Below are positions 1 to 6,787 of a stretch of 6,787 nt of DNA, one piece after another. Made by a program: the position numbers and the translations under genes. The stretch is from Clostridia bacterium. GTDB taxonomy: Bacteria > Bacillota_A > Clostridia > Oscillospirales > CAG-272. The notes under the pieces are model-generated. The model did no database searches and was not told where the DNA came from. It was given only the letters and a program-made list of their open reading frames with translations. Location of the stretch: the NCBI GenBank assembly GCA_017462125.1, contig JAFTRQ010000188.1:1-6787 (forward strand). Reading direction: 5' to 3'. The number at the start of each line of letters is the position of its first letter. Positions within the stretch are counted from its first letter, which is position 1.

Positions 1-119
1 CGCCGAGTGGTATTCGCTACGCGAGTTAATAGGCGAATAGAATATCACTGAAGCCATAGGCTTCAATATCACTTTTGCGTAGCAAAAATATCACTCTTTG
101 CGCAGCAAAGAATATCACT
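1..119. repeat. Hairpin array with AATATCACT units (left copy)
   Basis: The 9-mer AATATCACT occurs at 41-49, 65-73, 87-95 and 111-119. A near-copy of its reverse complement (GTGGTATT, one change from GTGATATT) is at 7-14. The sequence between units is always a perfect small palindrome: TCGC/TAC/GCGA at 14-24, TGAAGCC/ATA/GGCTTCA at 49-65, TTTTGC/GTA/GCAAAA at 73-87 and CTTTGC/GCA/GCAAAG at 96-110. Unit orientation flips across the linker GAGTTAATAGGCGAATAG (23-40). The array continues off the left edge. Positions 2-49 match 6730-6779 closely in the same orientation. No coding capacity is seen. This is a structured intergenic repeat; its mechanism is unknown to me. Confidence 0.85.
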
Positions 120-128
120 TATAGAAAG

Positions 129-188
129 CAGAAAAGAGAGAGCTTTACGGAATTTTGCTTCCGCATTACTCTCTCTTCTGTTTTTATT
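129..188 (+). terminator. Terminator-like stem-loop followed by T5
   Basis: CAGAA plus GAGAGAG (129-142, with a two-A bulge) pairs with CTCTCTCTTCTG (169-180), and TTTTTATT follows at 181-188. The loop contains a second small stem, CGGAA/TTCCG (148-163). This fits an intrinsic terminator for plus-strand transcription entering from the left edge. Read on the minus strand, the same stem is followed by CTTTCTAT, so it may also weakly end transcription of the small membrane-protein gene. Confidence 0.5.
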
Positions 189-304
189 GCCAGTTTCGCA
201 TTTGTAATACAAATGCCGTCGGGCTATGCCCATACCCTTATTCAAATTCTCCGACAAGGACAGCACCCATTAGGTGCATCGCTTTTTTATCGGATAAGTA
301 AAAC
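189..304. other. Non-coding stretch with several short stem-loops
   Basis: No gene is visible here. It carries GCATTTGT/AAT/ACAAATGC (198-216), GGGC/TAT/GCCC (221-231), and GCACC/CATTA/GGTGC (263-277) nested inside a distant TCCGA (250-254)/TCGGA (290-294) pairing. ATAAGT/AAA/ACTTAT (294-308) overlaps the stop codon of the next gene. TTTTTT at 283-288 follows the GCACC stem on the plus strand. Together with the 129-180 stem this makes a run of five hairpins next to the AATATCACT array, so it may belong to the same repeat-rich block. Confidence 0.5.
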
Positions 305-6610: not shown

Positions 6611-6648
6611 AACGGCAAGAAAACAACATAAAAAATCTCCACGGGCAT

Positions 6649-6676
6649 GGCGTTGTGTCCCTAAGGACACAACGCC
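6649..6676. other. Perfect 12-bp stem-loop after the CPBP gene
   Basis: GGCGTTGTGTCC (6649-6660), loop CTAA, GGACACAACGCC (6665-6676). It lies 38 bases past the stop codon. No T-run follows on the plus strand, so it is not a standard intrinsic terminator, though it could stabilise the 3' end. On the minus strand a T6 tract (6630-6635) occurs after a gap of 13 bases. It ends five bases before the hairpin array. Confidence 0.65.
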
Positions 6677-6680
6677 AACT

Positions 6681-6787
6681 CTATTCGCCTGCGGCGAGTG
6701 ATATTGCTTCGCAGTGATATTCGGCTTGTGCCGAGTGATATTCGCTTCGCGAGTTTTGGGAGGCGAATAGAATATCACTTCAAGGCA
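6681..6787. repeat. Hairpin array with AGTGATATT/AATATCACT units (right copy)
   Basis: GTGATATT occurs at 6698-6705, 6714-6721 and 6735-6742, and its reverse complement AATATCAC at 6771-6778. The intervening segments are perfect palindromes: TCGCC/TGC/GGCGA (6685-6697), TGC/TTC/GCA (6705-6713), TCGGC/TTGT/GCCGA (6721-6734) and TCGC/TTC/GCGA (6742-6752). CTATTCGCC (6681-6689) is the exact reverse complement of GGCGAATAG (6762-6770), bounding a 90-bp unit. The array runs off the right edge. Confidence 0.85.

Follow-up and report, generated by a model that had tools for sequence, protein, structure and literature searches.

Inverted linker-and-hairpin arrays matching Gut-1 form part of a repeated, terminator-associated DNA unit of gut Clostridia

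Integron gene cassettes and group IIC introns are short single-gene units whose sites are folded single-stranded DNA or terminator-like hairpins. The motif Gut-1 (RF01706) was first presented, as far as the available part of its description goes, as a noncoding RNA candidate from environmental sequences only. TIRtrons, described in 2013 (PMC3733652, available in part), are RAYT-like genes between terminal inverted repeats. Among titles and opening lines of abstracts, a literature search for terminator-targeting mobile elements, and for RAYT genes together with terminators, returned nothing besides IS1272 (PMC5678879, available in part). Here we describe a repeat unit and compare it with these systems.

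The window, meaning the whole stretch of DNA analysed, is a contig of 6787 bases. Its ORFs include PGK and TPI, both identified by reading their translations, and others that encode a MatE transporter, a protein of DJ-1/PfpI type and one resembling CAAX proteases. The 9-mer AGTGATATT occurs in it in eight exact copies, four per end, and in four further copies with one mismatch; these 12 compare with 1.22 expected, a number that none of 200 shuffles attained. A first-pass annotation of this DNA had stated that eight segments beside AATATCACT/AGTGATATT units all pair with themselves while their stems differ, and perfect pairing was indeed found in all eight, as read from the sequence:

15–23: hairpin CGC-TAC-GCG
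50–64: hairpin GAAGCC-ATA-GGCTTC
74–86: hairpin TTTGC-GTA-GCAAA
96–110: hairpin CTTTGC-GCA-GCAAAG
6686–6696: hairpin CGCC-TGC-GGCG
6706–6712: hairpin GC-TTC-GC, of 2 bp only
6722–6733: hairpin CGGC-TTGT-GCCG
6743–6751: hairpin CGC-TTC-GCG

All five spacers with exact units on both sides are perfect hairpins (shuffle expectation, 0.06). The pattern in the window is genuine, and what carries it is a terminator-associated DNA unit that recurs. The annotation had placed it at positions 1–119, where there is indeed an array; this covers the element only in part, as the left unit reaches to about 288 and its mate starts at about 6630. The two units are made up as follows:

1–288, minus strand: left unit (element A), cut off by the contig start, from array to terminator half; laid out as in the fuller copies L159, L160 and L244
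120–37, minus strand: Gut-1 match, 45.6 bits, below the cut-off of 50
32–40, plus strand: GGCGAATAG, one half of a covarying stem whose partner would lie beyond the contig start
41–119, minus strand: four constant 9-mers (AGTGATATT on this strand) alternating with three perfect hairpins
130–180, plus strand: subterminal hairpin AGAAAAGAGAGAG...CTCTCTCTTCTG, then TTTTTATT, terminator-like; similar in L159, L160, L165 and L244
247–266, minus strand: GTGCTGTCCTTGTCGGAGAA, the hairpin motif of end B, type I; other array copies, and units with RAYT or cargo, finish in a similar motif
273–288, plus strand: GGTGCATCGCTTTTTT, presumably the right half of a split terminator, judged from the pattern in other copies; mate off the contig
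6630–6647, plus strand: AAAAAATCTCCACGGGCA, presumably the left half of a split terminator, likewise with its mate off the contig, 19 nt behind the stop (6610) of the upstream ORF
6649–6676, plus strand: terminal hairpin GGCGTTGTGTCC-CTAA-GGACACAACGCC
6681–6770, plus strand: domain closed by CTATTCGCC (6681–6689) and GGCGAATAG (6762–6770), 72 nt apart; inside, three AGTGATATT units and small hairpins
6676–6746, plus strand: Gut-1 match, 57.1 bits, E 1.2e-09
6630–6787, plus strand: right unit (element B), cut off by the contig end within its second arm (AATATCACT at 6771–6779)

No gene was recognised within these two array units. The contig probably breaks at both ends because both fall within such repeat units. 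Elsewhere in the window, the stretch between an 84-aa ORF and TPI contains a direct repeat of 70 nt (93%) as well as a long inverted one, GCAGAGGGGCGGAACGG..CCGCCCCTCTGC (666–735, 808–877 and 843–897); matches to miRNA families at 825–917, which sit on the long inverted repeat and stay below cut-off, were rejected.

To see the family as a whole, we scanned genome contigs for AGTGATATT N6-24 AGTGATATT, a pattern blind to the spacer, and obtained at least 118 stretches. By our reading of their titles, loci L001–L080 divide into 54 of Clostridia type, many of them from herbivore guts, and 26 others, with L081–L118 left out. Spacers of the Clostridia-type loci were perfect hairpins in 83 of 111 cases (1.5 expected) and imperfect in the remaining 28; at the other-titled loci, which we take for chance occurrences, 2 of 27 were perfect (0.07 expected). 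Spacer pairing is the rule, not an absolute. Both perfect other-title spacers stand in MAG contigs titled Akkermansia or Akkermansiaceae (L003, L021), through either binning error or transfer. The first-pass annotation had proposed a genome-wide REP/MITE-like family whose variation preserves pairing, and this is borne out: spacers pair far more often than shuffled sequence would, and copies extend well beyond this locus, the pattern being present in 27/27 genomes reached from 30 chosen loci (2–89 matches each; reversed control, 0), all of them picked because one of their loci held it. As in REPs and REPINs, the repeats are palindromic and lie outside genes in many dispersed copies. With no constant set in advance, an array finder detected 56 runs, counting both strands, in 640 kb made up of genomes G009 and G028 and the window, against 0 in one shuffle. 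Its constants were mainly GTGAAAT, GTGATAT, ATGATAT, GTGAAGT and their complements, with odd ones elsewhere, such as TCGTCGA in L084. Plasmids gave no array match, phages a single one of 98 nt in an unannotated record, and viral contigs six stretches with the three-unit pattern, which makes a phage or plasmid repeat unlikely. The CRISPR likeness drawn in the annotation did not hold up, as identical hairpin spacers turn up in different copies and genomes.

Contrary to the annotation, which knew no named element with this grammar, the Rfam covariance model of Gut-1 matches both arrays; the window scores above the gathering score of 50 at its right arm and belongs to the family on that count. In G009 (1.4 Mb) there are 51 Gut-1 matches, several of them in opposite-strand pairs about 20–45 nt apart (for example, C31:10339-10415 on the minus strand with 10232-10320 on the plus strand). 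In a class-level sample, Gut-1 was detected at E 1e-3 in 30 of 148 genomes and exceeded the cut-off in 18 of 148; one of 14 control genomes (E. coli) had matches, below the cut-off. What Gut-1 describes is a single arm of an inverted composite found repeatedly in gut Clostridia.

The full unit measures roughly 300–440 bp. Complete copies begin with an end hairpin and AACTCTATTCGCC, followed by a stretch in which small hairpins take turns with AGTGATATT-type units, and by GGCGAATAG. Beyond it, three hairpins are interspersed with AATATCACT units; next come a longer hairpin that has a T-tract and, last, the other end region. The closing segments CTATTCGCC and GGCGAATAG covary at a varying base: among 76 centres, 64 were paired (28 C-G, 18 A-T and 18 T-A) and 2 mismatched, the 10 centres with no recognised partner being tallied separately. 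Spacers in the printed copies are non-random, the hairpin closest to the centre often being GAAGCC..GGCTTC or GAAACC..GGTTTC and the outermost CTTTGC..GCAAAG, with the middle hairpin the most variable. Similar units of about 360–390 bp lie at unrelated loci of G018 (L149, L151, L152 and L157), and the same orthologous gene end in G009 (L397) and G028 (L413) is followed by array units with different constants. Array units in G022 (L198, L202, L205 and L206) attain about 1 kb in the printed stretches, with many more hairpins per arm, unit variants including AGCTAAATT, and, separating the arms, a tandem repeat whose period is about 110 nt. Another multi-copy repeat, of about 500 bp, was seen between conserved genes of G008 (L277:7049-7554 and other places).

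C(GNA)G and C(GNNA)G form very stable DNA mini-hairpins, RNA prefers GNRA tetraloops, and GNA loops occur in RNA too. Loop statistics were compiled for 161 distinct hairpins, all given as on the AATATCACT strand. Triloops (n = 81) were GNA in 40 cases and TNC in 3; tetraloops (n = 71) were GNNA in 45 and TNNC in none, with a pyrimidine at the third base in 26 (GNYA) and a purine in 19 (GNRA). In a separate count, C-G closed 75 of 85 triloops. Under DNA parameters the AATATCACT strand was predicted to be the more stable in 62 hairpins versus 6, a lean that weakened to 51 versus 18 under RNA parameters. The annotation had left folding as RNA or as single-stranded DNA side by side; the loop sequences favour single-stranded DNA, and RNA is still compatible with them.

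We then looked at what surrounds the unit. Five copies in G018 (L149–L152 and L157) each lie, by eye, within an inverted repeat of their own with A- or T-rich feet, for example AAACGGGCTGT..ACAGCCCGTTTTTTT. For a systematic count we used the 65 of 89 centres with full flanks, dropping the other 24, and excluded pairings between the unit's own conserved end cores (which removes L106 and L260). An outer stem of at least 10 nt stood at the expected place in 29/65 copies, versus 109/4160 (2.6%) mismatched pairings, and one of at least 12 nt in 14/65 versus 20/4160; with end-core pairings allowed, the count was 31/65 versus 168/4160. Some of the 29 qualifying stems are of low complexity (L035, L080 and L394), and 36 of the 65 copies have no qualifying stem of 10 nt. 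Among the 29, ORFs ending toward the unit within 150 nt numbered two at 16 copies, one at 11 and none at 2, with many stop codons 0–30 nt from the unit. In many copies the unit lies between the halves of an inverted repeat peculiar to its locus, which looks like a split intrinsic terminator. This flanking stem, like the inverted composite, the covarying CTATTCGCC/GGCGAATAG stem and the end hairpins, had been missed in the first reading.

Some copies adjoin an intact terminator-like hairpin beside a tRNA gene (L166, tRNA-Tyr; L168, tRNA-Arg). At L261:1481-1560 (G015), the loop of a terminator-like hairpin contains just a single end hairpin, perhaps the remnant of a deletion. L059 and L290, both of G015, have in common about 20 nt of a terminator half (CAAAAGGAGTACGAGCAATT, by eye), with different unit types and outer flanks. 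No strict empty site was found when L040 and L277, holding three G008 element sites, were compared with 25 congeners of G008, where homologous genes were present and adjacency across the sites was not conserved among the matches listed; nor did one appear between about 505 kb of G028 and 18 stretches of G009. Comparing locus flanks with one another gave 16 pairs matching on both flanks, all of them overlaps of the same place. L463 (a tRNA-Thr terminator with no array) and L391 (with an array) were rejected as a strict empty-site pair, since the other neighbour differs. No target-site duplication was recognised by eye at the printed junctions.

The ends of the unit are not confined to arrays. 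The end motif GTGATGTYCTTANCGGAGAA also begins units that hold no array, and the following two-ended units sit in split terminators (stem lengths given last):

L287/L298: GNAT acetyltransferase; 18 nt
L300/L303: kinase-like AAA_18 protein and DUF559; 13 nt
L376: another GNAT protein; 9 nt
L377: broken RAYT gene, type I ends; 13 nt
L322 (= L339): RAYT of 160 aa free of stops, type II ends; 11 nt
L346: RAYT, open frame of 173 codons, type II ends; 14 nt by eye

Beside the RAYT frame of L346 runs a second open frame of 243 codons, and at L256 the stem is of just 8 nt. Four of 11 end-motif places (L375, L378, L379 and L380) were set aside as chance, lying apparently within or directly beside ORFs. 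The second end type, TCTAAAGGWCAGTAA, occurs with up to two mismatches at 18 places, three of which (in L037 and L055) look like chance; it is common to array units (such as L402, L413, L457 and L016) and to the RAYT units L322 and L346. Array and RAYT units thereby have two end types in common. Pieces of RAYT follow such an end at L289, L290, L384 and L385, and RAYT genes or pieces between or behind ends recur in G005, G015, G036, G010 and G154. In L290 (G015:C20), the RAYT piece and end motif are followed by an integrase-core (rve) transposase ORF (PF13683, PF00665).

As to the identity of the RAYT protein, NF047646 was matched at 7.6e-19, below its curated cut-off, PF01797 above cut-off, and PDB 4er8, the TnpA-REP of E. 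coli, at 4.2e-05. Of 148 genomes, 30 have Gut-1 and 30 have RAYT, and 14 have both (6.1 expected; one-sided Fisher p = 2e-4, uncorrected for kinship); in the other 16 Gut-1 genomes, including the many-copy G009, G116 and G165, no RAYT match was found. Inverted repeats of at least 11 nt flanked 4 of 23 RAYT loci, versus 5.7% of mismatched pairings; L339 (= L322) is one of the four, and at L340 the repeat is a GTAG-REP-like pair. With an A-tract filter, which misses L339 (= L322) and L346, split terminators stood at 1/23 RAYT loci versus 14/506 control. That RAYT genes generally reside in split terminators was rejected on these counts, which show no general excess over control. Loci of IS200-type TnpA (strong PF01797 matches) had neither ends nor arrays in the stretches fetched. 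The GTAGGGG-type REP motif, the usual partner of RAYT, is present in L322, L377 and L376 and absent from L346, L287 and L300. Near RAYT genes of this genome class, GTAG-type REP palindromes were also seen at L340, L348, L351 and L365. A partner protein of RAYT/TnpA type, as suggested by the first-pass annotation, is plausible from the shared ends and partial co-occurrence, which fall short of proof.

On balance, we lean towards a non-autonomous REP/MITE-like mobile element of gut Clostridia that resides in intrinsic terminators and is probably moved by a RAYT-type HUH protein. Its order would be terminator half, end hairpin, subterminal hairpin, a repeated hairpin plus RTGAWAT-type linker, the mirrored repeat, end hairpin and other terminator half. 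Repeated along single-stranded DNA, linker and hairpin together may be what a protein recognises and binds in the array, much like GTAG and its hairpin in REPs; the AATATCACT strand would there form mini-hairpins whose loops are of C(GNA)G or C(GNNA)G type. The whole unit would probably be moved through such a single-stranded state by a RAYT-type HUH (TnpA-REP) protein and joined into the loop of a pre-existing terminator hairpin, an insertion that may be tolerated because the unit brings hairpins and a T-tract of its own. We name RAYT as the best candidate mobiliser, and as a candidate rather than a result, because its loci show no general excess of split terminators, its overlap with Gut-1 is partial and the GTAGGGG motifs are unevenly distributed.

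Among the alternatives, the one to be taken most seriously, unlikely as we judge it, keeps the mobile, terminator-targeting element and assigns it another recombinase, such as a DDE transposase that targets stem-loops, as proposed for IS1272, or the integrase-core transposase of L290, with RAYT just one among its cargo genes. IS1272 is reported (PMC5678879, available in part) to target inverted repeats whatever their sequence, replacing them; the rve ORF of L290 does lie behind an end motif and a RAYT piece, the co-occurrence of RAYT is partial, and gene-carrying units with no RAYT exist. Set against this, no DDE transposase was recognised among the printed ORFs of L287, L300, L376, L377, L322 and L346, the terminator stem is retained here instead of being replaced as by IS1272, and RAYT genes or pieces recur between or behind ends in five genomes. 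An improbable reading takes Gut-1 as catalogued, a structured non-coding RNA transcribed with many hairpins, whose numerous copies would be the members of an RNA gene family. Rfam's typing of RF01706 as sRNA, the window's match to it, the CTATTCGCC/GGCGAATAG covariation and the T-tract after the subterminal hairpin all agree with this; it is harder to square with a model that spans one arm only, so that the inverted second arm would put both strands of the motif into one transcript, with tetraloops split into 26 GNYA and 19 GNRA where RNA would prefer GNRA, or with other contents held in the same kind of frame.

Template switching produces perfect palindromes. Immobile composite bidirectional terminators, grown in place through hairpin duplication and palindrome-correcting template switching, would account for the position of units at gene 3′ ends, the block duplication seen in the G022 arrays and the failure to find an empty site. 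We consider this very improbable, since the similar units of about 360–390 bp at unrelated G018 loci and the foreign genes within the same frame suggest movement.

Starting from the RAYT-moved element, a broader and only tentative proposal, which we rate as possible more than probable, is that gut Clostridia harbour a large unrecognised class of mobile units in terminator loops, with a RAYT-moved frame of end hairpins and exchangeable contents: RAYT itself, integron-like single genes, or self-amplifying arrays of linkers and mini-hairpins, of which the Gut-1 ‘RNA’ is one arm. If true, a catalogued ‘noncoding RNA of uncultured gut bacteria’ would become a piece of a mobile DNA element, and terminators would be landing sites for mobile DNA, suggesting a route by which small genes could be shuffled between bacteria with host genes undisrupted. 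It would also make it possible to test whether RAYT proteins, which have long been suspected of mobilising REPs, are able to move cargo-bearing units.

Set beside known systems, the window has one counterpart in the Gut-1 RNA (RF01706), whose covariance model matches both of its arms, the difference being that the window presents an inverted multi-copy element often found in split terminators. With IS1272, as far as the available part of its description goes (PMC5678879), it has in common a target that is an inverted repeat of any sequence; IS1272 replaces the stem-loop, whereas here both stem halves stay and flank the unit. Neither the attC layout of integron cassettes nor the domains of group IIC introns were recognised here by eye. 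The likeness to REPs, BIMEs and REPINs lies in a short, invariant tag next to a hairpin, in arrays that run in both orientations, in the extragenic position and in the presence of RAYT in some genomes. The tag differs, however, being of RTGAWAT type (AGTGATATT, with relatives GTGAAAT, ATGATAT and GTGAAGT) in place of the GTAG tetranucleotide, which was not found beside the hairpins; stems vary while the tag stays constant, and the arrays form part of a larger unit that has ends of its own. TIRtrons and TIRYTs resemble the RAYT units L322, L346 and L377 (broken), in which the gene is enclosed by inverted ends that are self-complementary in part and whose motifs, recurrent like TIRtron ends, are found elsewhere with no gene; this holds for the RAYT units and not for those of the window. 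Residence in terminators, exchange for GNAT, DUF559 or kinase-like genes, and arrays of 9-mers and hairpins are not mentioned in the available part of the TIRtron description (PMC3733652). The window's units are short, with no recognised gene, and their end motifs resemble those of RAYT units; were the RAYT units mobile, this would be the relation of a MITE to its autonomous element. We place the element within the REP/TIRtron/MITE kind.
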